Program-made: the position numbers and the translations under genes
NCBI RefSeq assembly: GCF_004348685.1
Contig: NZ_SMKO01000018.1
Coordinates: forward strand, 1-64,000
Reading direction: 5' to 3'
Length of the DNA stretch: 64,000 nucleotides
DNA from: Nonomuraea deserti
GTDB taxonomy: Bacteria > Actinomycetota > Actinomycetes > Streptosporangiales > Streptosporangiaceae
The notes under the pieces: model-generated
Told to the model about the DNA's origin: nothing
The model's input: the letters and a program-made list of their open reading frames with translations, nothing else
Database searches by the model: none
Shown: positions 50,483 to 63,710 of the stretch, piece after piece
Position numbering within the stretch: the stretch's first letter is position 1
Layout: each line of letters begins with the position of its first letter

Positions 50483-53400
50483 TTGTATTTGAAGACCCTC
50501 ACCCTGCGCGGCTTCAAGTCCTTCGCCTCTGCGACCGCCCTGCGGTTCGAGCCCGGCATCACCTGCGTCGTCGGCCCCAACGGCTCGGGCAAGTCCAACG
50601 TCGTCGACGCCCTGGCCTGGGTCATGGGCGAGCACAGCGCCAAGTCGCTGCGCGGCGGCAAGATGGAGGACGTCATCTTCGCCGGCACCTCCTCCAGGCC
50701 CCCGCTCGGGCGCGCCGAGGTGACGCTGACCATCGACAACAGCGACGGCGCGCTGCCGATCGACTACACCGAGGTCACGATCAGCCGGCTGATGTTCAGG
50801 TCGGGGCAGAGCGAATACGCGATCAACGGCGACACCTGCCGCCTGCTCGACATCCAGGAGCTGCTGTCCGACTCGGGCATCGGCCGCGAGATGCACGTCA
50901 TCGTCGGGCAGGGCCAGCTCGACGCCGTGCTGCACGCCGGGCCCGAGGATCGGCGGGCGTTCATCGAAGAGGCCGCCGGCGTGCTCAAACACCGCAAGCG
51001 CAAGGAAAAGGCGCTGCGCAAGCTCGACGCCATGCAGGCCAACCTGACCCGCGTGCAGGACCTCACCACCGAGCTGCGCCGCCAGCTCAAGCCGCTGGGC
51101 CGCCAGGCGGAGATCGCCCGCAAGGCCGCCGTCATCCAGGCCGACCTGCGTGACGCCAGGCTCCGGCTGCTGGCCGACGACGTCGGCACGCTGCGTGCCA
51201 CCCTGGAGCGCGAGGCCGCCGACGAGGCCGCGATCACGGCCAGGCGCCACCAGGTCGAGATCGAGCTGGCGGAAGGCCAGCAGCGCGAGGCCGCACTGGA
51301 GGCCGCCGAGGCGGAGGCGCAGCCCCGGCTGGCCGCCGCTCAGGAGACCTACTTCAGGCTCTCGTCCCTGCGCGAGCGCATCACCGGCCTGGAACAACTC
51401 GCCGCCGAACGCCACCGGCACGCGCTCGACGCCGCCGCCATCGAGCGCAGGGGCCGCGACCCGGAGGAGCTGGAGCGCGAGGCGGCCGGGGCCCGCGAGC
51501 AGGAGCTGATCCTCAGGGCCGAGCTCGAACACGCGCACGAGCTCCTGGAGGCGGCCGTCGAGCGGCGCTCCGAGTCCGAGGCCGAGCTCAACGCGGAGGA
51601 GCAGCGGCTCGCGATGGCCGCCAGGGCCGCCGCCGACCGCCGAGAAGGGCTGGCCAAGCTGCGCGGCCAGGTCGATTCCGTACGCAGCAGGGCCAGGGCC
51701 GCCGAGGAGGAGATCGGCAGGCTCCAGGCGGCGGTGGCCGACGCGACCGAGCGCGAGAGCCAGGCCACGGAAGACCTGGAGGCGCGGCGGCTGGAGGAGC
51801 CCGCCGCCGACCCCGCGCTGGCCGAGGAGCTGGCCACGGCGCAGGCCGTGGTCGAGGAGGCCGCGGCGGTCGCCGACGAGGCGCGGGCGGCGGCCGAGGA
51901 GGCCAAGTCCTGCCTCGACGCGCCGCGGGCCGCCCTGCAGGCCGCGAAGTCGGCCGTGGTCACGGCCCGCGCCGCCGACCAGGAGGCCCAGCGTTCGGTG
52001 GCCGCGCTGGCCGCGCGCAAGGAGGCGCTGGAGCTGGGGCTGGCCAAGGGCGACGGCGGCGCGGCCCTGCTGGACGCCGGCCTCGCCGGGGTGCTCGGCC
52101 CGCTGGCGGCCGCCATGCAGGTCACGCCGGGGGCGGAGCCGGCCGTGGCGGCCGTGCTCGGTCCCGTCGCCGAGGCGATCACCGTGAAAACCCTCGACAC
52201 CGCCGTCGAGGCCATCGACCTGCTCCGTGCCCAGGGCAAGGGCCAGGCCACGCTCCTCGTCGCCCGCGCCGCCGACCAGCTCCCACCGGCCCGGCCCGGC
52301 CTGGAGCCCGCAGCCGGCCCCGGAGCCCCGGAGGCGCCCGGTCAGGGATCCGGGGTGGCGGACGCGTCCGGCCAGGGGTCCGCGGGCGTGTCCGGGACGG
52401 CGGTCCTGTCCGGTCAGGGATCCGGGGTGGCGGGCGTGGCGGCGCGGCGGCGGGGGAGTGCTCCCGACGGCAGCCGCTGGGTGGCCGACCTCGTCACGGT
52501 GCCCGACCATCTCCGTCCGGCCCTCGACCACGTGCTGGCCGGCGTGGCGGTCGTCCACGATCTGGCGGCCGCGCGCGAGCTGGTCGAGCGCCATCCCGGC
52601 CTGCGGGCCGTCACCACGCACGGCGACCTGGTGGGCGCGTACGTCGCCGATGGCGGGTCCGACGGCGGCACCTCCGTGCTCCAGGTGCGCGCGGCCCTCG
52701 ACGAGGCGGTCAAGGACCTGGAGGAGGCCGAGGGCAGGGCGGAGGAGACCGCCCGCGCCCTCGACGAGGCGGTCGGCCAGGAGCAGGCGGCCCAGACGGC
52801 CCTGGAGGCCGCGCAGGCCCGCGTCAGCGAGGCCCAGACCGCCGTCACGACCGCCCAGGCCGGCGTGAGCGCCGCGCAGGGCACGCTCGACCAGGTCAGG
52901 AGCCGCCAGCGGGAGGCCGACCAGCGCAACGCCGCGGCCGCCAGGCAGCTGGCCCAGCTCGAGGCCGCCGCCGGCGCCGCCCGGGCCGAGGCCGAGCGCC
53001 TGGCCAGGAGCGTCACCAAGGCGGAAGAGGCCCGCGCGGAGGGCCTGGAAGAGCTGGCCGAGCTGGAGATCCGGCTGGCCGAGGCCGAATACGCCCAGGA
53101 GCTGGAGTCGGAGCCCACCACCGACGGCCGCGACGAGCTGGCGAGCGCCTGCGAGGCCGCCAGGCAGCGCGAGATGGACACCCGCCTGCAGGTGCGCACC
53201 GCTGAAGAGCGCGTCAAGGGCATCGAGGGCCGCGCCGACGGCCTGCTGCGCGCCGCCCAGCGCGAGCGCCAGGAACGCGCCCAGGCGGCCGCCCAGCGCG
53301 CCAGGCGCAGGCGGCAGGCCGCCGTGGCCGAGGCCGTCAGCAAGGGCGCCAGGCGGGTGCTCGAGGCGCTGGCGACCTCCATCCAGCTGGCCGCCGGGGA

Positions 53401-54322
53401 ACGCGACGAGGCCGACCTCACCAGGGTCGCGGTCGACGCCGAGCTCAAGCAGGTGCGCCTGCGCGTACGCGAGCTCGGCCAGGAGCTGGACAAGCTGGTC
53501 AACCGGGTGCACGGCAGCGAGGTGGCCCGCACCGAGCAGCGCCTGCGGCTGGAGCAGATGGAGCAGCGGGCGCTGGAGGAGTTCGGCGTCGAGGTCGAGT
53601 CGCTGATCTCCGAGTACGGCCCCGACGCCCCGGTGCCCGGTGACCCGCCCGTGCCGTACGTCCGCGAGGAGCAGGAGAGGCGCGCCAAGGCGGCCGAGCG
53701 GCAGATGAACCAGCTCGGCAAGGTCAACCCGCTGGCGCTGGAGGAGTTCGCGGCGCTGGAGGAGCGGCACGCGTTCCTGACCTCGCAGCTCGAAGACCTC
53801 AAGAAGACCAGGCGCGACCTGCTGACGGTGGTCAAGGAGGTCGACGACCGGGTGGAGCAGATGTTCGCCTCGGCGTACGACGACGTGGCCAGGGAGTTCG
53901 AGCAGATCTTCACCAGGGTCTTCCCTGGGGGCGAGGGCCGGCTGGTGCTCACCGAGCCGGCCGACATGCTGACCACCGGCATCGAGGTCGAGGCCAGGCC
54001 GCCGGGCAAGAAGGTCAAGCGGCTGTCGCTGCTGTCGGGCGGCGAGCGCTCGCTGACGGCGGTGGCGTTCCTGATCTCCATCTTCAAGGCGCGGCCGTCG
54101 CCGTTCTACGTGATGGACGAGGTCGAGGCCGCGCTCGACGACACCAACACGCAGCGCCTGCTGACGTTGTTCGAGGAGTTGCGGCAGAGCTCGCAGCTCA
54201 TCGTGATTACCCACAACAAGCGTACGATGGAGATCGCCGACGCCCTCTACGGCGTGTCGATGCGCGGCGACGGCGTGACACAGGTGGTCAGCCAGCGACT
54301 GAGAGAGCGCGAGTCGGCCTGA
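50483..54322 (+). CDS. smc: Chromosome segregation protein SMC
   Basis: 1279 residues from TTG 50483 (preceded by GGAGAAGGGGG), giving the family start LYLKTLTLRGFKSFA. It compacts and segregates the chromosome with ScpAB. Walker A GPNGSGKSN (31-39), two long Ala/Glu/Arg-rich coiled coils, a hinge at about 510-700, ABC signature LSGGERS and Walker B FYVMDEVEAALDD near the end. It is about 90 residues longer than usual SMC, largely from a Gly/Ser/Ala/Pro insertion (about 602-664) inside the hinge region, with an exact 22-bp DNA repeat. Confidence 0.95.
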   Translation: MYLKTLTLRGFKSFASATALRFEPGITCVVGPNGSGKSNVVDALAWVMGEHSAKSLRGGKMEDVIFAGTSSRPPLGRAEVTLTIDNSDGALPIDYTEVTISRLMFRSGQSEYAINGDTCRLLDIQELLSDSGIGREMHVIVGQGQLDAVLHAGPEDRRAFIEEAAGVLKHRKRKEKALRKLDAMQANLTRVQDLTTELRRQLKPLGRQAEIARKAAVIQADLRDARLRLLADDVGTLRATLEREAADEAAITARRHQVEIELAEGQQREAALEAAEAEAQPRLAAAQETYFRLSSLRERITGLEQLAAERHRHALDAAAIERRGRDPEELEREAAGAREQELILRAELEHAHELLEAAVERRSESEAELNAEEQRLAMAARAAADRREGLAKLRGQVDSVRSRARAAEEEIGRLQAAVADATERESQATEDLEARRLEEPAADPALAEELATAQAVVEEAAAVADEARAAAEEAKSCLDAPRAALQAAKSAVVTARAADQEAQRSVAALAARKEALELGLAKGDGGAALLDAGLAGVLGPLAAAMQVTPGAEPAVAAVLGPVAEAITVKTLDTAVEAIDLLRAQGKGQATLLVARAADQLPPARPGLEPAAGPGAPEAPGQGSGVADASGQGSAGVSGTAVLSGQGSGVAGVAARRRGSAPDGSRWVADLVTVPDHLRPALDHVLAGVAVVHDLAAARELVERHPGLRAVTTHGDLVGAYVADGGSDGGTSVLQVRAALDEAVKDLEEAEGRAEETARALDEAVGQEQAAQTALEAAQARVSEAQTAVTTAQAGVSAAQGTLDQVRSRQREADQRNAAAARQLAQLEAAAGAARAEAERLARSVTKAEEARAEGLEELAELEIRLAEAEYAQELESEPTTDGRDELASACEAARQREMDTRLQVRTAEERVKGIEGRADGLLRAAQRERQERAQAAAQRARRRRQAAVAEAVSKGARRVLEALATSIQLAAGERDEADLTRVAVDAELKQVRLRVRELGQELDKLVNRVHGSEVARTEQRLRLEQMEQRALEEFGVEVESLISEYGPDAPVPGDPPVPYVREEQERRAKAAERQMNQLGKVNPLALEEFAALEERHAFLTSQLEDLKKTRRDLLTVVKEVDDRVEQMFASAYDDVAREFEQIFTRVFPGGEGRLVLTEPADMLTTGIEVEARPPGKKVKRLSLLSGGERSLTAVAFLISIFKARPSPFYVMDEVEAALDDTNTQRLLTLFEELRQSSQLIVITHNKRTMEIADALYGVSMRGDGVTQVVSQRLRERESA
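52340..52433 (+). repeat. Direct repeats coding the SMC hinge insertion
   Basis: The same 22 bases occur at 52340-52361 and 52412-52433 (GGTCAGGGATCCGGGGTGGC...), with a diverged third copy between (around 52371). They encode GQGSGVA-type units. Confidence 0.88.
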
Positions 54323-54374
54323 TGGGCGTGGCCTTGGGCATGACCATGGCGGTCGATCTGGAAAACTGACATCT

Positions 54375-55547
54375 GTGGATGGTTACCTCGGCGTCATCGT
54401 GATCGTGGCCGTCGTCGCCCTGCTGGCGGCCGGCGGTCTTTTCCTGCTCTTCCGGCCTGGCCGGAAAGCGCCTCCGCCGGTCAAGCCGCCCGAGGCTCCC
54501 GTGCTTCCCGAGGAGAAGCGGCCCGCGGGCACGGGCGAGGAGGGCGAGGGCGCGACCACCACGCTGCCGCCGCCGGCCAAGCCGGCCGAGCCCGTCGTGG
54601 TGGAGCCCGAGGTCGAGGTGCCGCCGCCGTCCGCGGGCCGGATGGTGCGGCTGCGCTCGCGGCTGGCGCGCTCGCAGAGCGCCCTCGGCCGCGGGCTGCT
54701 GGAGCTGCTCTCCCGCGACCGGCTCGACGACGAGGTGTGGGACGAGATCGAGGAGAGCCTGATCACGGCCGACGTGGGCGTCGCGCCGACCCAGATCATG
54801 GTCGAGGAGCTGCGCACCAAGGTCAAGGTGCTGGGCAGCCGCACGCCCGCGGAGGTGCGCGGCCTGCTGCGCGAGCAGTTGCTCGGGCAGGTCGACCCCG
54901 ATCTCGACCGCACGTTGCACGTGCGCAAACACGGCGAACGGCCCGCGGTGGTGCTCGTCGTGGGCGTCAACGGCACCGGCAAGACCACCACCACGGGCAA
55001 GCTCGCGCGTTCCCTCGTCGGCGACGGCAAGAAGGTCGTGCTCGGCGCGGCCGACACCTTCCGCGCGGCCGCCGCCGACCAGCTCCAGACCTGGGGAGAG
55101 CGGGTCGGCGCCGACACGGTGCGCGGTCCCGAGGGTGGCGACCCGGCCTCCGTGGCCTTCGACGCTGTCGCCAGGGGCATGGAGGAGAAGGTCGACGTCG
55201 TCATCGTCGACACCGCCGGCCGCCTGCACACCAAGACCGGCCTCATGGACGAGCTGGGCAAGGTCAAGCGGGTCATCGAGAAGAAGGCCACGGTCGACGA
55301 GGTGCTGCTCGTCCTCGACGCCACCACCGGCCAGAACGGCATGCGCCAGGCCCAGGTGTTCGCCGAGGTGGTCAACATCACCGGCATCGCGCTGACCAAG
55401 CTCGACGGCACCGCCAAGGGCGGCATCGTGATCTCGGTGCAGCGGGAGCTGGGGGTGCCGGTCAAGCTCGTGGGGCTGGGCGAGGGGCCCGACGATCTGG
55501 CGCCGTTCGACCCCGAGGTCTTCGTGGACGCGATACTCGGCGACTGA
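54375..55547 (+). CDS. ftsY: Signal recognition particle receptor FtsY
   Basis: 390 residues from GTG 54375. Receives SRP-ribosome complexes at the membrane. An N-terminal membrane helix (about 3-24, YLGVIVIVAVVALLAAGGLF) as in actinobacteria, a Pro/Glu-rich linker, the N domain from about 85, and the SRP GTPase with GVNGTGKTTTTGKLA (197-211), DTFRAAA, DTAGRLHTK, TKLDGTAKGG. It starts 52 bases after smc, the conserved smc-ftsY pair. ffh is not within this window. Confidence 0.96.
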   Translation: MDGYLGVIVIVAVVALLAAGGLFLLFRPGRKAPPPVKPPEAPVLPEEKRPAGTGEEGEGATTTLPPPAKPAEPVVVEPEVEVPPPSAGRMVRLRSRLARSQSALGRGLLELLSRDRLDDEVWDEIEESLITADVGVAPTQIMVEELRTKVKVLGSRTPAEVRGLLREQLLGQVDPDLDRTLHVRKHGERPAVVLVVGVNGTGKTTTTGKLARSLVGDGKKVVLGAADTFRAAAADQLQTWGERVGADTVRGPEGGDPASVAFDAVARGMEEKVDVVIVDTAGRLHTKTGLMDELGKVKRVIEKKATVDEVLLVLDATTGQNGMRQAQVFAEVVNITGIALTKLDGTAKGGIVISVQRELGVPVKLVGLGEGPDDLAPFDPEVFVDAILGD

Positions 55548-55686
55548 GGACAATTTCCGGCATGGCCGTAATTGGTCCTGAAATACCCCTTACCAGATAA
55601 GCATTGATCGATGTCTTTTCTGTGTGCTGACATGTACCGGTCATCAACCTGAGTGCTCGGTTCCATTCAACGACGAAGGGGCATCC
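55548..55686 (+). promoter_or_regulatory. AT-richer upstream region of the peptide gene
   Basis: This 139-base stretch has a visibly lower GC content than its surroundings. TTGGTC (about 55574) and AGATAA 17 bases later are a weak promoter candidate. GAAGGGG lies just before the ATG at 55687. Confidence 0.4.
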
Positions 55687-55761
55687 ATGAAGAAGATCGT
55701 TGTTCACCGGCCAGGAACTGTGAAGCCGACCGCCGCGGCAGCGCCGAGGCACGGCACCTGA
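55687..55761 (+). CDS. 24-residue basic peptide, possible precursor or signal peptide gene
   Basis: The frame starts MKKIVVHRPGTVKPT, continues with four alanines and ends PRHGT. It has a strong ribosome binding site (GAAGGGG, 6 bases away). It has no Cys and no hydrophobic export signal, but six basic residues and three Thr. A perfect 10-bp hairpin follows at 55769, then the TPR gene. Short K-I-V-V-R/H...G-T-V-K/R peptides near regulatory TPR proteins made me suspect a ribosomally made modified peptide, but no modification enzyme is seen. Unrecognised; function not assigned. Confidence 0.5.
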   Translation: MKKIVVHRPGTVKPTAAAAPRHGT

Positions 55762-55768
55762 CGCACCA

Positions 55769-55796
55769 GGCCGGCGCCTGATCGCGGGCGCCGGCC
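55769..55796 (+). promoter_or_regulatory. Hairpin between peptide gene and TPR gene
   Basis: GGCCGGCGCC (55769-55778) and GGCGCCGGCC (55787-55796) form a perfect 10-bp stem. With no T run, it may be an attenuator or mRNA-stability element between the peptide and the TPR gene, rather than a full terminator. Confidence 0.6.
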
Positions 55797-55823
55797 CTCG
55801 CCTGACCACGGAAATGGGGTCGT

Positions 55824-57500
55824 GTGGACACGATCATGCTGGACGCGGACCGCCGGATCGGCGGCCCCTACACCTTCGCCGCCGCGCTGCTCGGCCATCT
55901 CGTCCCGGCCGCCCTGGCACGGCATCCCGAGCTGGTCGCCGCGCATGACGTCGAGATCCGGACGGCCGGGCCGAAACTCCGCGACGTCGTCCCGGCGCGC
56001 AGGCGCTCACTGGCCGACGACCTCCCCCGCGCACAGCGCATCCTCATCCCCGCCGCCCGGCGCAGCCTCAGGATCGCCAACGGGCTGGCCGAGTTCGTCC
56101 GTGACCACCTCGACCGCGCGGGCCCTCTCGCCGTGACCGTGACGAACCTCGACGCCGCCGACCCCACCGACACCGAGCTCGTCGCCGTGCTGCGGCGCCG
56201 GCTCGACCCCCGCCTGCTGCGGATCGACGAGGGCCCGCAGGCACCGTCGGCCGGGGCGTTGCCGGCCGACTTCGACCGCTACCGCGACGAGGGTTTTCAC
56301 CACGCGATGGCAGAGTCGGGCCTGGAGGCGCTGCGCGGCATGGCGTACGACGCCGACCCGCCGCGCCGGCGGCAGCTCCTGCAGCGCGTAGCCGCCTCGC
56401 TGGAGGCCATCGAGCGCGAGGACGAGGCCCGCGAGCTCTACGACCGCGCCAGGCGCGAGAGCACCGACCCCAGACACCGCGCCACCATCGCCTACGCCAC
56501 CGCCATGATCCTCGTACGCCACCACGACCCCGCGCGGCGCGACCCCGAGCAGGCGCTGGCCTGGATCAACGAGGCGATCACGATCACGTCGCTGCTGCCC
56601 GACCCACGGGAGCGGGCCTTCCACCTCGGCTTCGACCTCAACGGCAAGGCCCTGGTCGAGGTCCGCAGGGGCCGGCCCGCCGCCGCGATGGAGCTGGTGC
56701 AGCAGGCCATCGACCTGGCCGAGGCAGACCTGCCGGCCGAGCATCCGATCCACAAGCTCGTGCTCCACGCCAACAGGGGCCAGCTCCTGGCCATGACGGG
56801 CCGGGCGGAGGAGGCGCTGGCCGACTACACGCGGGCGGTCGAGGCCGACCCCGGCTATCCCGACTACTACCTCGACCGGGGCAACCTGCTGCACAAGCTG
56901 GGCCGCGACGACGAGGCGCTGGCCGACTACGAGACCGTCATGCGGCTCAGCCCGCCCTTTCCCGAGGCGTACTACAACCGGTCCGAGCTGCGTTACGCGG
57001 CGGGCGACCTCGCGGGCGCCCGCGCCGACCTGGATCACACGCTGGAGCTGGACCCCGAGTTCGCGCCCGCGTACGTGAACAGGTCCGGGCTGAGCGCGGC
57101 GGCCGGCGCGTACGCCGAGGCCCGGCGGGACGTCGAGCGGGGGCTGCGGCTCGCGCCGCGCGACCCGCACCTGCTGTGCGTGCTCGGCCAGGTCGAGCTG
57201 GCCGAGGCGCGCCACCCGGCGGCGCGCGCCGCCTTCGACCGGGCCCTGGAGCTCGACCCCGATCTGGTCGCGGCCTGGGCGGGGCGGGCCGAGCTGGCCT
57301 TCGAGCTCGGCGACCACGGCGCGGCCCTGGCCGACCTGACGAGCGCCCTCAAACGCGAGGAGACGGCCGAGCTGCTGTTCAACAGGTCGGTGGTGCACCG
57401 GGCCTCGGGACACCCGGACCAAGCCCGCGACGACCTGCTCAGGGCCGCGGTCCTGGCACCCGGCGACGGCGACATCAGGCAGGCTCTCACCGAGGTATGA
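55824..57500 (+). CDS. TPR protein with conserved N-terminal domain
   Basis: 558 residues from GTG 55824. Residues about 1-130 form a distinct domain (RRIGGPYTFAAALLGHLVP, HDVEIRTAGPKLRDVVP, RRSLRIANGLAEFVRDHL) that I associate with actinomycete regulatory TPR proteins but cannot name. From about 170 onward come at least ten tetratricopeptide repeats (for example NRGQLLAMTGRAEEALADY, DRGNLLHKLGRDDEALADY), a protein- or peptide-binding solenoid. No ATPase or HTH motif, no membrane segment. The MFS gene starts 4 bases after its stop, so they are cotranscribed; the 24-residue peptide gene lies just upstream. Confidence 0.82.
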   Translation: MDTIMLDADRRIGGPYTFAAALLGHLVPAALARHPELVAAHDVEIRTAGPKLRDVVPARRRSLADDLPRAQRILIPAARRSLRIANGLAEFVRDHLDRAGPLAVTVTNLDAADPTDTELVAVLRRRLDPRLLRIDEGPQAPSAGALPADFDRYRDEGFHHAMAESGLEALRGMAYDADPPRRRQLLQRVAASLEAIEREDEARELYDRARRESTDPRHRATIAYATAMILVRHHDPARRDPEQALAWINEAITITSLLPDPRERAFHLGFDLNGKALVEVRRGRPAAAMELVQQAIDLAEADLPAEHPIHKLVLHANRGQLLAMTGRAEEALADYTRAVEADPGYPDYYLDRGNLLHKLGRDDEALADYETVMRLSPPFPEAYYNRSELRYAAGDLAGARADLDHTLELDPEFAPAYVNRSGLSAAAGAYAEARRDVERGLRLAPRDPHLLCVLGQVELAEARHPAARAAFDRALELDPDLVAAWAGRAELAFELGDHGAALADLTSALKREETAELLFNRSVVHRASGHPDQARDDLLRAAVLAPGDGDIRQALTEV

Positions 57501-57504
57501 GCCG

Positions 57505-58761
57505 ATGGGACGGCGCTACTGGCTGCTGCTCAGCGCGTTCCTCGCCTCCTCGCTCGGCACCTGGATCTACCGGCTGGCCCTGCCGCTCCTGGTCTACGAC
57601 CTGACCGGCTCCGCGTTCGGCACCGGGCTCGTGTACGCCATGGAATACCTGCCGTACGTCGCGCTCGGCATGCTCGGCGGGGTGCTCGCGGACCGGGTCG
57701 ACCGGCGGCGCGTGCTCGTGCTCGGCGACCTGATCTCCGGTGCGGTCACCGTGCTGCTCGCGGTCATCGTGACGGCCGGCGTGCGGCAGCTCTGGGCGAT
57801 CTACGCGGTGGCGTTCCTGCTGGCCTGCGTCGATCCCCTCTACCAGCCCGCGTTCCGCTCGATGGTGCCCTCGCTGGTCCCGGTGGAGCGGCTGCCGCAG
57901 GCGAACGCGCGGCTCCACATGGGCGAGCACGCGGTGAACATGGTCGGCCCCGTGGTCGGCGGCGCGCTCGTCGTGGGCCTCGGCCACCAGGCCGCGATCT
58001 ACGTGGACGCGGGCACGTTCGTGCTGTCGGCCCTGCTGATCTGGCCTGTCAGGGCGGCGCGGGGCGCGCTGACGAGACGCGGCCGGTCCATGCTCGCGGA
58101 CATCCGGGAGGGCCTCAGCTTCCTCTTACGCGGCGACAAGGTGGTGCTCACCACCGCGCTCGCGACCGCGGCGTGCAACTTCGGGGTCTGGCTGCTGCTG
58201 GCCGGGCTCGTCTACTATCTCAGCTCGTACCACGGGTTCACGCCGGGGGAGATCGGCGTCGTCTACGCCTTCCAGGGGGCGGGCGCGGTGCTCGGGGCGG
58301 TGCTCGGCAGCCGGTTGCTGCGCAGGTATCCGCCGGGTCGGGTGATCTGCTGGGCCGTGGCCGCGGGCGGCCTGTCGATGCTGGCCATGATCGTGGCGCG
58401 CGGCCCCGTGCCGATCGGGCTCGCCTGGCTGGGGCAGTTCGCCGCGGCGGGGACGTCGATCGTGGCCGTCGCGACCGTGCGCCAGCTGCTCGTCCCCGAC
58501 CATCTGCTCGGACGGGTGCTCGGCACGGCCAGGATGATCGCCTTCCTGTCCATCCCGCTCGCGTCGCTGGCCACGGGCGTGTTCGAGTCGGAGACGCGCA
58601 ACGCGTACGCGCTGATGGTCGCCGCGGGGGTGGGCTGGCTGGCCATCGCCGCCGTCGTGTCGCACACGCCGCTGGGCCGGCTCAGGCTTCCCGCTCTGCG
58701 GGACGGGAGCGCGGGCCGATCGGCACCACCAGGGGAGTCCCGGCCACCGGATCCTCGATGA
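57505..58761 (+). CDS. MFS exporter linked to the TPR gene
   Basis: 418 residues, about 12 membrane helices, MFS_3 type (motif A region [16 protein letters not shown]). The ATG at 57505 is 4 bases after the TPR stop. The tail (after about 385) is Arg/Pro/Gly-rich and cytoplasmic. Its 3' end overlaps the convergent ABC ATPase by 80 bases. The substrate is unknown; the context suggests export of whatever the peptide/TPR module makes or senses, but an independent efflux role is equally possible. Confidence 0.86.
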
Positions 58762-59485
58762 CCTTGGCGTCCAGCTCGAACACCTCGCGCAGCAGCTCCT
58801 CGGTCAGCACCTCGTGCGGGGTGCCCGAGGAAATCACCTGCCCGGCGCGCATGGCCACCAGCCGGTCGGCGTAGCGGGCGGCCAGGTTGAGGTCGTGGAG
58901 GACCATGACGACCGTGCGGCCGGCCCGCTGGTGCAGGTGGCGTACGAGCTCCAGCACCTCCACCTGGTGGGCGAGATCGAGGAAGGTCGTGGGCTCGTCG
59001 AGCAGCAGCAGGTCGGTGCCCTGGGCCAGGGCCATGGAGATCCACGCCCGCTGCCGCTGCCCGCCCGACAGCTCGTCCAGCGGCCGTTCCGCCAGGTCGG
59101 CCAGGCCCGTCATGTCCAGCGCCGCGGTGACCGCGCCCTCGTCGTCGGAGGACCACTGCCGGTACCACGTCTGGTGCGGATGCCGGCCCCTGGCCACCAG
59201 GTCGGCCACGGTCAGCCCTTCGGGGGCGACGGGCGCCTGGGGGAGCATGCCGAGGATCTTGGCGACCTCGCGGGTGGGGATCTTGTCGATGCGCTTGCCG
59301 TCGAGCAGTACCTCGCCGCCCTGCGGCTTGAGCAGGCGGCCGAGCGCGCGCAGCAGGGTGGACTTGCCGCAGCCGTTCGGGCCGATGATGGTGGTCACGG
59401 TGCCCGCCTCGATGCCGAGGTCGAGCCCGTCGACGACGACGCGCTCGCCGTACCCGAGCCTGAGGTCGGCGGCCTGCAGTCTCAC
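58682..59485 (-). CDS. Siderophore ABC transporter ATP-binding protein (FepC-like)
   Basis: 267 residues from GTG 59485, whose GTGA overlaps the permease stop. Powers ferric-siderophore import. Walker [10 protein letters not shown] (35-43), signature [10 protein letters not shown], Walker [14 protein letters not shown], switch His in [13 protein letters not shown]: all typical of the FepC/FhuC group. It is the third gene of a permease-permease-ATPase operon controlled by the iron box at 61603. Confidence 0.94.
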
Positions 59486-60525
59486 TTGCGTGACCTCCAG
59501 ATCAGATGGATCAGGTAGGGGGCGCCCAGCACGGCGGTGACGATGCCGACGGGCAGCTCGAGCGGGGAGAACGCGGTGCGCGCGATCAGGTCGGCGCCCG
59601 TGGTGAGCACGCCGCCGATGACCGCCGAGCACACCAGGGGCGGCCGGCCTGACCGGACCAGCCTGAGCGCGATCTGTGGCGAGGCGAGGGCCACGAACGC
59701 GATCGGGCCGGCGGAGGCGGTGGCCACGGCGGCCAGCAGCACGGCGGCCAGGATCAGCAGGGCGCGGGCCGGATTCATGCGGACGCCGAGGGCGGTGACC
59801 GTGTCGTCGCCGAAGCGCAGGGCGTCGAGCGAGCGGGTGCCGAGCAGGGTCAGCGGCACCAGCACGGCCAGGGCCAGCGCCGTGGGTGTCACGTGCTCCC
59901 AGCCCCGGCCGTTGAGCGAGCCGCTGATCCAGATCATGGCGCGGCTGGTGTCGTTGACGTCGCCGACCGTGAGGAGCCAGAACTTGACGTTGGTGAACAC
60001 GGCGGCCACGCCGATGCCGACCAGCACCAGGCGGTAGCCGTCCAGGCCGCGCCGCCATGCCAGCCCGTAGACGACGGCGGCGCCGAGCAGGCCGCCGAGC
60101 AGGGCGAGCGCGGGGATGCCGAGGGTGGACAGCAGGCCGCTCACGCCGCCGTAGACGCTGCCGCTGGCCACCACGCCGGCCACGACCGTGACGGAGGCGC
60201 CGGTGGTGACGCCGAGGATCTCGGGGCTGGCCAGGGGGTTGCGGGCGATGGACTGGATGATCGCCCCGGACAGCGCGAGCGCCGCGCCGACGAGGGCGCC
60301 GGTGAGCGCGCGGGGCAGGCGCAGCTCCATGATGACGAAGTGGCCCGGGTCGTTGACGTCGAACGTGCCGGCGACCACGCCGGCGATGCTCATCTCGATG
60401 TCGCCGATGCGCATGTTCAGGGCCATGAGCAGGGCGAGCAGGACCAGCCCCGTCAGGGTGAGCACGACGGCGCGCGGGCGTACCTGCCAGGACAGGCCGG
60501 CGACGCGCAGGGGGAGAGTGGTCAC
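59482..60525 (-). CDS. FecCD-family siderophore permease, second subunit
   Basis: 347 residues from GTG 60525, overlapping the stop of the first permease by GTGA. About ten membrane helices; the FecCD signature region [26 protein letters not shown] is near the N-terminal third and [17 protein letters not shown] follows. Pairs with the next-listed permease to form the heterodimeric channel. A longer upstream frame overlaps the first permease and is not used. Confidence 0.93.
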
Positions 60526-61556
60526 AGGCGCACCGGCTTCCTGCGCCGCACCAGGGCGACGAAGAACGGCGCCCCGAGCAGCGCGAGCACCACACCGACC
60601 TCCAGCTCTCCCGGCGGGGCCACCACGCGCCCGACCACGTCGGCGACCAGCAGCAGCGCGGCGCCGACGAGCCCGGAGTACGGCAGCAGCCACCGGTGGT
60701 CGGTGCCTGACAGCGGACGGGTCAGGTGCGGCACGATGAGCCCGACGAACGCCAGCGATCCGCAGGCGGCGACCGACGCGCCCGACAGCAGGGTGACGGC
60801 GGCGACGCCGACGGCGCGGGTCACGGGGATGTTCTGGCCGAGGCTCCTGGCGACGTCCTCGCCGAGCGACAGGGCGTTGAGCCCCGGGGCGTTGACCGCC
60901 GCCAGCACGAGGCCCACCAGGATGAACGGCAGCACCTGCCAGACGACGTCGGCGCCCCTGGCCGCGATCGAGCCCGCCTGCCAGAAGCGGAAGACGTCCA
61001 TCGCCTGCTCGTCCAGCAGCACGATGGCCGAGGTCAGCGCGTAGAGGAAGGCGCTCACGGCGGTGCCCGCGAGCGCCAGCGTGACCGGGGTCGGGCTGCC
61101 CTTGCCGCCCGTCATGCCGAGCGCGAACACCGCGACGCTGGCCACCAGCGCCCCCGCCAGACCGAACCAGATGTAGCCGAGCAGGCTGGAGACGCCGAGC
61201 AGGACGATCGACGACACCATCGCGAACGCCGCCCCCTGCGTGACTCCGAGCAGGCCGGGGTCGGCGAGCGGGTTGCGGGTGTGGCCCTGCATGAGCGCGC
61301 CGGCCACGCCGAGCGCGACTCCGGCGAGCACGCCGAGGACCGTCCTGGGGACGCGCAGCGCGCGGATGACGATGTCGTTCTCGGTGCCGGTCGGCGCGGT
61401 GAGCGCGTGCCAGGCGTCGGTGAGCGGCACGGACTTGGAGCCGATGGTGACGCTCAGCACCACGGCGGCGACCACGGCGGCGAGCAGCACGGACAGGACC
61501 GTGAGCCGCCGGTGGCGGACGCCACGAAGCCGGGGGGCGACGGCCGTTGCGCTCAC
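60522..61556 (-). CDS. FecCD-family siderophore permease, first subunit
   Basis: 344 residues from GTG 61556, preceded by [48 protein letters not shown] is the FecCD hallmark (given here as consecutive motifs RTVLGVLAG and [10 protein letters not shown]). First gene of the minus-strand operon, divergent from the binding-protein gene and sharing its iron-box region. Confidence 0.93.
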
Positions 61557-61602
61557 CCGTGCCCTCCTCGATGTTTGCCGGATCCCGGTGCAGTATGCCA
61601 GC

Positions 61603-61621
61603 TTAGGCAGGGCTAACCTAA
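61603..61621. promoter_or_regulatory. DtxR/IdeR iron box
   Basis: TTAGGCAGGGCTAACCTAA matches the DtxR/IdeR consensus TTAGGTTAGGCTAACCTAA at 16 of 19 positions. It lies between the divergent permease and binding-protein genes, so an iron-loaded DtxR-family repressor should shut off both. Confidence 0.82.
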
Positions 61622-61622
61622 A

Positions 61623-61636
61623 TTAGGTTTGCCTTA
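61623..61636. promoter_or_regulatory. Second, weaker iron-box-like site
   Basis: TTAGGTTTGCCTTA starts two bases after the first box and keeps the TTAGG half with an imperfect other half. Tandem boxes would allow cooperative binding. Confidence 0.5.
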
Positions 61637-61656
61637 TTTTGACCGAGAGGGTGCTG

Positions 61657-62625
61657 ATGAGACCGTTGCGCGCGCTGGTCTGCGCTGTCCTGGCCGTGGG
61701 GCTCGCCGCCTGCGGTTCCGCGGAGCCCGCGGACGCCCCCGCGCCGAGTGCCCCCTTCAGGACCGTCAAGCACGTCATGGGCGAGACGGTGATCCCGGAG
61801 CAGCCGAAGCGGGTGGTGGCGCTCGACCAGAGCTTCGTCGACGCGGTGCTCACCCTGGAGACGCCGGTGGTGGGCTACACCACCTACCGGTCGATCGACA
61901 CTGAGCTTCCCGGCTATCTCGGGGCCGTCGCCGAGCGGTACGGCAAGCAGGCCACTCCGGTCGGGACGCTGGAGCAGCCGAGTCTGGAGAAGATCATCGC
62001 GCTCAAGCCCGACCTGATCGTCTCGGCCAAGGTCCGCCACGAGGCGCTGTACGAGAAGCTCTCCAAGATCGCGCCCACGGTCTTCAGCGAGACCACAGGG
62101 GCCATCTGGAAGGAGAACCTCCGGCTCATGGGTCAGGCCCTGGGCAAGGAGACGCTCGCCGACGCCAGGATCAAGGAGTACGAGGAGCGTGCCGCCGCGA
62201 TCGGTGCGGCGATCAAGAAGAAGGACGGCGAACTGCCGACGATCTCCGTCGTGCGCTTCGCCGGCGAGCCGACGACCCGGCTCTACGTGGAGAACTCGTA
62301 CTCCGGCGTGGTCTTGAAGGACGTCGGGTTCCCCCGGCCGGAGAGCCAGCCGACCGCGAAGGACGCCATCGCCGTGGACGTCAGCCAGGAGCGGATCGCG
62401 GAGCTGGACGCCGACCAGATCTTCGTCGCGACATATCCGGATCCGTCGTCTGACGGGCCCAAGGAGAAGTTCGTGAACAACCCGCTGTGGGGCAAGCTCA
62501 AGGGCGACAAGCACGAGGTGAGCGACCTGACCTGGATGAGCGCTGTGGGCATCCAGGGGGCGCACGCCATGCTGGACGACGTGGCGAAGTTCTTCGCCGT
62601 CGATCCCGCCAGACCCGCCTCCTGA
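61657..62625 (+). CDS. Ferric-siderophore binding lipoprotein
   Basis: 322 residues from ATG 61657, preceded by GAGAGGG. The signal peptide ends in lipobox LAAC (C19), anchoring the protein outside the membrane. Class-III substrate-binding fold (Peripla_BP_2): PKRVVALDQSFVDAVLTLETP, LEKIIALKPDLIVSA, and a long connecting helix. It delivers a ferri-siderophore to the FecCD permeases encoded divergently. No siderophore synthesis genes are in the window, so the ligand could be self-made elsewhere or foreign. Confidence 0.93.
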   Translation: MRPLRALVCAVLAVGLAACGSAEPADAPAPSAPFRTVKHVMGETVIPEQPKRVVALDQSFVDAVLTLETPVVGYTTYRSIDTELPGYLGAVAERYGKQATPVGTLEQPSLEKIIALKPDLIVSAKVRHEALYEKLSKIAPTVFSETTGAIWKENLRLMGQALGKETLADARIKEYEERAAAIGAAIKKKDGELPTISVVRFAGEPTTRLYVENSYSGVVLKDVGFPRPESQPTAKDAIAVDVSQERIAELDADQIFVATYPDPSSDGPKEKFVNNPLWGKLKGDKHEVSDLTWMSAVGIQGAHAMLDDVAKFFAVDPARPAS

Positions 62626-62630
62626 CGCCT

Positions 62631-63710
62631 CTACCGGGGCAGGAACGCGCGCAGCTCCCCCAGGTGGGGAGCGACGTCCAGGCCCTGCCGGGCGAGCCAG
62701 CTCGGGTCGCCGTACGTGCCCTCGTAGCGGTCGCCGCTGTCGCAGACCAGCGTGACGATGCTGCCCCGCTCGCCCGACTCGCGCATCTCCGCGATGAGGC
62801 CCACGCAGGCCGCCATGTTCGTCCCCGTCGATCCGCCCACGTGGAGGCCGGTCACCTCGCGGGTCCAGTGCATGGCGGCGATCGAGCGGGCGTCCGGCAC
62901 GGCGATCATGCGGTCGATGACGGCCGGCTGGAAGGAGGGCTCCACGCGGGGGCGGCCGATGCCCTCGATGCGGGAGCCCGGCGCGGTGACCGTGGTGTCG
63001 CCGGAGACCCAGCTCGGGTAGAAGGCCGACCCCTCGGGGTCGGCGACGGCCAGGCGGGTGGCGTGGCGGCGGTAGCGGATGTAGCGGCCGATGGTGGAGG
63101 ACGTGCCGCCGGTGCCGGCGCCGACCACGATCCACGCGGGCACCGGGTAGGGTTCCATGGACATCTGGGAATAGATGGACTCGGCGATGTTGTTGTTCCC
63201 GCGCCAGTCGGTCGCCCGCTCCGCGTAGGTGAACTGATCCATGAAGTGCCCGCCGGTCTCGGCGGCCAGGCGGTGAGATTCCTCATAGATCGCACCCGGA
63301 TCGCTCACGAGATGACACTTCCCACCGTAGAACTCGATGAGGTGGCACTTCTCCGGCGACGTGGACGCGGGCATGACGGCGATGAAGGGCAGGCCGAGCA
63401 GCCGGGCGAAATAGGCCTCGCTGACGGCGGTGGATCCGCTCGACGCCTCGACGACGGTCGTGGCGGGCCCGATCCAGCCGTTGGCCAGGCCATAGAGGAA
63501 GAGAGAACGAGCGAGCCGATGTTTGAGTGAACCTGTGGGGTGCACCGACTCGTCTTTCAAGTAGAGGTTTACACCCCAGTCCGAGGGCAGCGGAAAGACG
63601 TGCAGATGTGTGTCGCAACTACGGTTGGCGTCGGCCTCGACCTTCCGTATGGCCTCGGCCACCCAGCGGCGGGTGCCGGGGTCGTGGCGGTCGACGAAGC
63701 TCATGCTCAT
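62631..63710 (-). CDS. PLP-dependent cysteine desulfhydrase/synthase-like (Cds1 type)
   Basis: 359 residues. Fold-type II PLP enzyme: K63 in [11 protein letters not shown] binds [13 protein letters not shown] holds the substrate carboxylate and [10 protein letters not shown] the phosphate. The sequence type matches actinobacterial Cds1 (Rv3684), which releases sulfide from cysteine, rather than biosynthetic CysK; activity is inferred. The catalytic-site insertions ([18 protein letters not shown]) are characteristic. It converges with the binding-protein gene with 5 bases between stops, and there is no sign that they share regulation. Confidence 0.85.

Follow-up and report, generated by a model that had tools for sequence, protein, structure and literature searches.

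A conserved 24-codon peptide gene beside a TPR protein gene in Nonomuraea and its kinship with RiPP-like three-gene loci

In actinomycetes, a tetratricopeptide repeat (TPR)-type protein is linked to a short peptide in the FxSxx-COOH system. Small peptides are likewise encoded beside TPR proteins in the RRNPP systems of the Bacillota, for which the criteria are a propeptide of 10–100 amino acids (aa) beside the receptor gene, a secretion signal or long hydrophobic centre within that propeptide and a TPR receptor of 250–500 aa (PMC10075063), and membrane-bound M50 proteases (TglG, TmoG and EpeP) occur in pathways for ribosomally synthesised and post-translationally modified peptides (RiPPs; PMC10885120). 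Here we describe a 24-codon open reading frame (ORF) which lies just upstream of a TPR protein gene in the first 64,000 nucleotides (nt) of contig NZ_SMKO01000018.1 from the actinomycete Nonomuraea deserti (genome size 10.69 Mb), a stretch which we refer to as a whole as the window, together with homologous loci from other genomes. The peptides at these loci end without FxSxx, and no FxSxx-COOH TPR model was seen among the NCBIfam matches listed (25 of the 27).

Downstream of smc and ftsY, the locus runs in one direction from an AT-richer stretch to the peptide ORF (encoding the basic 24-aa peptide MKKIVVHRPGTVKPTAAAAPRHGT at positions 55687..55761 of the plus strand, with an ATG start), a hairpin, the TPR gene (55824..57500, plus strand) and a gene for a major facilitator superfamily (MFS) transporter, which starts 4 bases past the TPR stop. 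All of the elements given in an initial annotation of this DNA were present, including the 24-codon ORF itself and a Shine-Dalgarno-like GAAGGGG read directly from the sequence 5' of the peptide (55675..55681, plus strand). The pairing of the peptide with the TPR gene is conserved and well supported, and our best explanation, on which we are evenly divided, is that the peptide would be a fixed ligand or subunit of its TPR partner, and the locus a reduced branch of a RiPP-like system made up of a precursor, a protease bearing a RiPP recognition element (RRE) and a TPR protein.

Conservation of the peptide

When ORFs of 14–70 codons were allowed, 78 of 79 homologous loci proved to have an ORF upstream that is exactly 24 codons long and shares the same head (the set was found through two short motifs, is mostly from Nonomuraea, and comes from a search in which the best 80 of 93 matches were retained). 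A search of this kind had been proposed in the initial annotation, where it was held that TPR homologues consistently lacking a conserved small peptide would speak against a peptide system; since 78 of the 79 loci carry the peptide, this objection fails. The sole exception is L122, in which the upstream region holds the end of a transposase-like coding sequence (TnpB-type, read by eye) instead of a peptide. This locus was assigned to type B (see below) through its TPR protein, and is a natural separation of the peptide and the type B TPR gene. In a second set of 30 loci, which includes a paralogue from the window's own genome, the 24-codon peptide was recovered from 27 by a strict pattern; in L036 and L037 the peptide counts 23 or 25 codons according to which start is taken, and upstream of the L038 TPR gene there is no peptide, its genome having one elsewhere. 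The own-genome paralogue encodes a TPR protein with 50% identity to that of the window and has the ORF MKRIIVRKPGTVRLAGTSSVIHKG, also of 24 codons, directly upstream; an EamA-type transporter gene lies upstream and no MFS gene was seen within the 4.4-kb stretch examined.

Two types can be recognised in the set of 79. Type A (44 loci) has the consensus MKK[IV]VVH[RK]PGTVKP..AA.P[RK]Hxx and, within the stretches examined, ftsY is found upstream in 43 of these. Type B (35 loci, L122 included) has a peptide which reads MKRIVVRKPGTARLAGTSSVIHKG, with an EamA gene upstream in 31 of the 35 as counted by hand. Taking the peptides of two-gene peptide–TPR loci together (45 of type A and 35 of type B, with the window and the paralogue included, and referred to here as couple peptides), all 80 share M1, K2, G10 and H22 without exception and are encoded by 78 distinct DNA sequences. 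It should be noted that the couple peptides were picked by a pattern requiring exactly 24 residues and are of equal length by construction, and because of this our statement on length rests on the search that allowed 14–70 codons. A purine-rich 4-mer (GGAG, GAGG, AGGA, AAGG, GGGG or AAAG) is found 4–16 nt upstream of 41 of the 45 type A and all 35 type B ORFs, and the distance from the peptide stop to the TPR match is 63–315 nt in type A and 65–101 nt in type B.

Variability at the first, second and third codon positions inside the ORF is 0.148, 0.130 and 0.286 for type A and 0.071, 0.041 and 0.198 for type B, and this third-position excess is limited to the peptide ORF, with none in the DNA upstream or downstream. 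The ratio of non-synonymous to synonymous differences (pN/pS, as a sum over all pairs irrespective of relatedness) is 0.33 overall for type A and 0.23 for type B, and by segment in type A is 0.14 for residues 2–12, 0.34 for residues 13–22 and 1.65 for residues 23–24, such that the window's type of peptide is conserved over most of its length and only the last two residues vary fast. The ORF-limited excess and the pN/pS values therefore favour translation and disfavour a merely structural RNA, and with these patterns of selection behind it the peptide is probably translated from position 55687, as the initial annotation had proposed.

The TPR partner and its coupling to the peptide

The TPR ORF has a GTG start and encodes a protein of 558 aa (the start codon is GTG or ATG in most of 25 aligned relatives and TTG in two), with Nonomuraea longispora providing the closest named relative among the matches listed (92% identity). 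Its Pfam match to TPR_2 (E 1.7e-37), together with an extra domain at the N-terminus, agrees with the initial description of a TPR protein with a distinctive N-terminal domain. The AlphaFold model has a mean predicted local distance difference test score of 94.6 over 554 residues from the Met at position 55836, and Foldseek matched TPR superhelices, e.g. that of O-GlcNAc transferase. In longer relatives the N-terminal domain matches the last part of the AAA_16 profile below threshold (in L120, profile positions 98–162 of 167 with E 1.1e-4), and the first part of the profile, in which we would presume the P-loop to lie, is left uncovered. We take this domain, with moderate confidence, to be a pseudo-STAND or AAA-like remnant without a P-loop; a comparison of its profile with PDB sequences gave nothing useful.

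The independent profiles of the TPR domain and of the peptide each matched 18 of the 394 genomes in a class-level sample, and the 18 were identical. In a sample of 200 genomes from the family, the TPR domain was found in 95 and the peptide in 92, all of which are within the 95, placing the peptide–TPR unit in about half of the family genomes sampled. Three TPR genomes had no match to the peptide profile, and a locus search which covered two of these (G013 and G115, with the third, G032, left out) revealed a weaker peptide in both. A phylum-wide sample of 394 genomes returned only the window's own genome and G289, neither of which was new. The coupling is one of genomes and not always of adjacent genes, as G016 and G051 each have a TPR gene that lacks an adjoining peptide and a peptide elsewhere in the genome. 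In addition, six peptide matches (L245–L248, L250 and L251) have no TPR match in the surrounding 8–10 kb; two look decayed (L246 with a broken frame and L251 with a run-on) and four are intact. PHROGs gave a match to the peptide at chance level only, and one match in the TPR region.

Some of these isolated peptides can be compared with pairs elsewhere. The genome with the broken-frame peptide of L246 (G070) has another pair (L249), and L246 may be a decaying copy. L247, L250 and L251 share a similar neighbourhood with L253, in which a peptide ORF is present in all and the TPR gene in L253 only, and the L251 peptide, which is six codons longer, looks like a product of decay.

A small gene constantly paired with a larger partner might be taken as a toxin–antitoxin system in which a harmful basic peptide is neutralised by the TPR protein. 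We regard this as very improbable, as the peptide is hydrophilic, the type A pair keeps a stable place 3' of ftsY, four of the isolated peptides have stayed intact with no TPR gene near them, and the single match from PADLOC, a weak one in the TPR region, was to a PrimPol model.

The pair also resembles RRNPP systems in that a small peptide gene directly adjoins the gene for a TPR solenoid, and the peptide might be a secreted quorum signal with the TPR protein as its intracellular receptor, a reading to which the M50-type protein and the SARP-type regulators beside many of the three-gene relatives (see below) would lend themselves. However, no hydrophobic secretion-type segment was found in the 80 couple peptides (the top 12-residue Kyte-Doolittle mean was 1.2), the peptide is nearly fixed between species, and Pfam matched no helix-turn-helix family in the TPR protein, which with its extra N-terminal domain is longer than the 250–500 aa of RRNPP receptors (PMC10075063) and has an actinomycete host. 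A secreted signal is for these reasons improbable in our view, and we rejected filing the locus as RRNPP on the secretion segment and receptor length.

Three-gene relatives and a proposed origin of the pair

In seven genomes of the class-level sample the peptide match lies approximately 1.4–1.7 kb upstream of the TPR match, and with further members of the family included we counted 17 such three-gene loci. The intervening gene of approximately 1.2 kb encodes a hydrophobic protein of approximately 400 aa with an HExxH motif, which is invariant in six aligned rows, each having 5–7 hydrophobic 19-residue windows. No Pfam match (one protein scanned), no useful NCBIfam match and, with the protease profile, no useful match to PDB sequences were found, and because of the Pfam and PDB results the M50 label that we use rests on the motif and layout. 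The N-terminus of the protease could be aligned by hhalign with independent PqqD domains, which have the RRE fold, at a probability of 95.9% (E 5.7e-9) when distant relatives were added and at 75.8% (E 2.3e-5) for the six three-gene rows alone; matches that were themselves protease N-termini had been excluded from the PqqD set. Eight column shuffles gave no more than 0.1%, and the C-terminal part of the protease and the TPR N-terminal domain no more than 0.2%, as controls. Furthermore, four proteins above the cut-off of the PqqD model have one HExxH and 6–7 hydrophobic segments in the same frame, so that wider relatives show directly an RRE fused to a membrane-type protein with HExxH.

The three-gene peptides (18, of which 16 are distinct) are 26–33 residues long and align with the couple peptides without gaps over the first 24 residues, which makes the two akin at the level of sequence. 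In eight divergent representatives chosen from the 18, the mean majority fraction is 0.85 at residues 1–15 and 0.43 at residues 16–26, and both Cys and Tyr are present in every tail; at one locus there are two tandem copies of the peptide which differ in the tail only. Position 22 is Tyr in 15 of the 16 distinct three-gene peptides, in contrast to the His found in all 80 couple peptides. With their conserved head and variable Cys/Tyr tail, the three-gene peptides look like RiPP precursors.

These loci resemble the M50 RiPP pathways (PMC10885120) in having a short precursor-like peptide and a hydrophobic HExxH, RRE-like protein. The window's locus differs from those pathways in having no protease, RRE or modification enzyme and a TPR/pseudo-STAND protein as the constant partner, and the couple peptides differ in having no variable core beyond the last two type A residues. 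No modification enzyme had been visible in the initial annotation, and scanning the window proteins around the locus likewise revealed no RRE, protease or modification enzyme. The suggestion made there of a small-peptide signalling or RiPP-like system is upheld in part: the kinship with RiPP systems is found, through the distant RRE-M50-type loci, while for a full RiPP or secreted-signal system within the window there is no support, given these absences, the lack of a hydrophobic segment in the peptide and its near-fixed sequence between species. With no RRE, protease or modification enzyme found at it, the locus was not classed as a RiPP cluster.

The 24-mer might nonetheless be a true RiPP-type precursor whose enzymes are encoded elsewhere, with the TPR protein serving as scaffold or regulator and with export of the product, which in the window's species would fall to the MFS transporter. 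Its kinship with precursor-like peptides beside RRE-M50-type proteins, the fast-evolving C-terminal residues of type A and the ThiF-type genes that adjoin distant RRE-M50 relatives (one of them confirmed, with a sub-threshold PaaA-like match) are consistent with this. We consider it unlikely, given that besides the absences at the locus itself a PqqD search of the own genome gave no match at E ≤ 0.001, the protease profile matched there only a distant relative whose neighbouring short peptide is a different one, plus one short partial match, and Cys occurs in just 3 of the 80 couple peptides.

Several of the more distant loci are of interest in their own right. The distant relative in the own genome (L220, G000:C450:9000-21000) is of the RRE-M50 type; a 21-aa ORF, MKIEIKRVENTRLTQLIHPDS, immediately precedes it and a large AfsR/SARP-like gene (by eye) is close by, and it is a candidate for a separate RiPP-like locus. 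Distant RRE-M50 genes in G289 (L222) and G421 (L223) are found behind the similar 25-aa peptides MKKLVVRKLEPIKTSANADCVPAAA and MKKLIVRRLESVKTSAATSCSVVVA, which possibly represent a further RiPP-like family. RRE-M50 relatives adjoin ThiF-type genes (by eye) in L224, L226, L229 and L231, and in L224 the ThiF gene was confirmed by Pfam and has a sub-threshold match to a PaaA-like N-terminal domain; peptides beginning MR[SA]YVEREV are found upstream in L224, L226 and L231, and the four are probably uncharacterised RiPP clusters. They resemble the PaaA-like ThiF/RRE enzymes of the pantocin A type (PMC12250964) in the ThiF neighbour (L224) and the short peptides, while no ThiF-type gene was recognised by eye among the neighbours of the window's locus or of the three-gene loci. 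Neighbours of the three-gene loci and of the distant RRE-M50 relatives were found with a custom GC-based gene picker and read by eye unless confirmed by Pfam. One clade (L191, L192, L193, L238, L239, L241 and L242) continues with an Oxidored_FMN (Old Yellow Enzyme-type) gene and is flanked by a divergent SARP-type regulator (BTAD and NB-ARC), both of which were confirmed by Pfam in L191 only and read by eye in the others.

A quick tree of 112 TPR proteins placed type A, type B and the three-gene loci each on one side of a branch, with ungrouped rows excluded, and these splits therefore indicate that the three layouts are old and separate. The tree has long branches and is midpoint-rooted, and the placements of L125 and L195 are unreliable. 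Three carriers from outside the family (G208, G289 and G427) have the three-gene form only, and because this is their sole form we prefer loss of the protease in the window's branch to its gain; the alternative, in which the protease was gained in one branch and then transferred, is possible.

In the explanation that we favour, the upstream regulatory region would drive expression of the 24-residue peptide and, past the hairpin, of the 558-residue TPR solenoid, and the peptide would remain in the cytosol, bind its TPR partner and set the state of that partner. It would share an origin with the RiPP-like precursors of the three-gene system, where the RRE-bearing M50-type membrane protease probably handles the peptide too and frees its tail. 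The locus in the window's branch has no protease; here a more fixed tail with His22 would have taken the place of the variable Cys/Tyr tail, leaving the TPR protein as the only constant partner of the peptide. The peptide head and TPR protein are constant and the protease, MFS, EamA and hairpin are variable, and a ligand or subunit is the simplest model.

A number of observations weigh against this explanation. The last two residues of the type A peptide evolve fast, which a fully fixed ligand does not need, the peptide and TPR gene are apart in G016 and G051, and the six isolated peptides have no TPR match nearby. In the midpoint-rooted tree the three-gene loci lie beside type A and are not basal, which disfavours an ancestral three-gene state. 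The AAA/STAND reading of the N-terminal domain is weak, as the AAA_16 match is below cut-off and Foldseek gave no match to the domain at E ≤ 0.001, with only weak and mixed AAA+ and TPR ones beyond this.

No description of the peptide–TPR pair or of the three-gene layout was found in our searches of open-access literature (most subscription papers and bioRxiv fall outside this scope). We tentatively suggest, though with some doubt, that these loci may represent an undescribed actinomycete system in which a peptide with an MKK[I/V]xx[R/H]KxG-x-V-[R/K]-L head would be recognised by a pseudo-STAND/TPR partner and, in the fuller form, by an RRE-M50 protease as well, and that in the pair of Nonomuraea and its relatives a RiPP-type precursor may have turned into a fixed intracellular ligand, giving a signalling or allosteric peptide/TPR pair of a kind not yet known from actinomycetes. 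Our analysis brings in a very small gene that comparison supports strongly, and ties the peptide–TPR unit to the three-gene layout, whose loci are leads for new peptide products. Were the peptide a ligand of the TPR protein, the actinomycetes would gain a peptide–TPR regulatory pair, and the reduction that we propose would show how a precursor of the RiPP type can end up as a fixed partner inside the cell.

Upstream DNA, hairpin and the MFS gene

The GC content of positions 55500–55699 is 53%, the minimum among the 200-base windows of 53000–59999 (the others range from 61% to 83%), in agreement with the AT-richer region noted before the peptide. In this region TTGATCG (55604..55610, plus strand) is conserved by k-mer comparison of type A upstream DNA: it lies no more than 130 nt before 22 of the 45 type A peptides, and the maximum for any 7-mer in 20 letter shuffles was six. 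It may act as a -35-like promoter element; a sigma-70 scan of 55500–55900 called no promoter. CGGTCAT is found in 24 of the 45 upstream regions, and the palindromic block TGACATGTACCGGTCA (55628..55643, not assigned to a strand), which is also conserved in type A, is a possible operator or promoter element. The 17-mer TGACATGTACCGGTCAT occurs once in the own genome when up to two mismatches are allowed, and approximately 1.5 occurrences of the looser palindrome TGACNNGTACNNGTCA with two mismatches are expected per window by chance, which counts against an operator; on these two results a regulon of the palindrome was rejected. In type B a TTGATA...AATAAT arrangement is visible upstream (read by eye).

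Just 3' of the peptide stop is a strong hairpin (55769..55796, plus strand), and the uninterrupted 10-bp stem noted initially was found here as 10 Watson-Crick pairs, or 12 with the inner pairs counted. No T-run terminator was called here in a terminator scan, and therefore we read the hairpin, which separates the peptide and TPR genes, as likely to stabilise the mRNA or to act as a partial terminator. Among the type A loci, 34 of the 45 have a stem of at least 9 pairs no more than 90 nt past the peptide stop, and none of the 35 type B loci has one; in 25 type A loci 5 of 11 stem pairs are kept with both sides changed, a count which leans towards a hairpin as the 25 were picked for a clear stem. 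The stem, its compensatory changes and the position of the ORF before the operon would be expected if the ORF were a regulatory leader, the translation of which attenuates the TPR(-MFS) operon together with the hairpin while the peptide itself is inert. This is rather improbable, because type B keeps the peptide and the hairpin is not conserved with the ORF, a gene of approximately 1.2 kb intervenes in the three-gene loci, four isolated peptides remain intact where no TPR gene is close, and the peptide is under selection over most of its length and fixed in that length.

The MFS gene (57505..58761, plus strand; Pfam MFS_1 with E 6.1e-34 and MFS_3 with E 2e-29) is an optional member of the locus, and follows the TPR gene in 10 of the 44 other type A loci. 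None of the 35 type B loci showed the gene; among these the L123 stretch ends inside the TPR gene and cannot be judged, and that of L114 ends soon after and barely can. L124 and L125 have disrupted TPR reading frames. The exporter is not supported as the integral member that the initial annotation had made of it, and the MFS transporter as an essential partner was rejected as it is missing from 34 of the 44 type A loci. Over the 10 loci which have it, MFS identity to the window copy falls with TPR identity (Spearman rho 0.91), which therefore fits an old neighbour that has been lost many times. This tracking would also suit export of a RiPP-type product, but the absence from so many type A loci and from those of type B seen here argues against it. 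The next genes downstream, for an ABC ATPase and two FecCD permeases (Pfam/NCBIfam), run in the opposite direction, and the MFS protein may merely be the siderophore exporter of this convergent operon. It has an EntS match, though below the cut-off of that model, and against this reading the MFS gene follows the TPR gene in L076 and L120 with no match to that ATPase in the stretch examined. The minus-strand genes at 58682-63710, convergent with the MFS gene, are of the siderophore/cobalamin importer type and are followed by a PALP enzyme gene.

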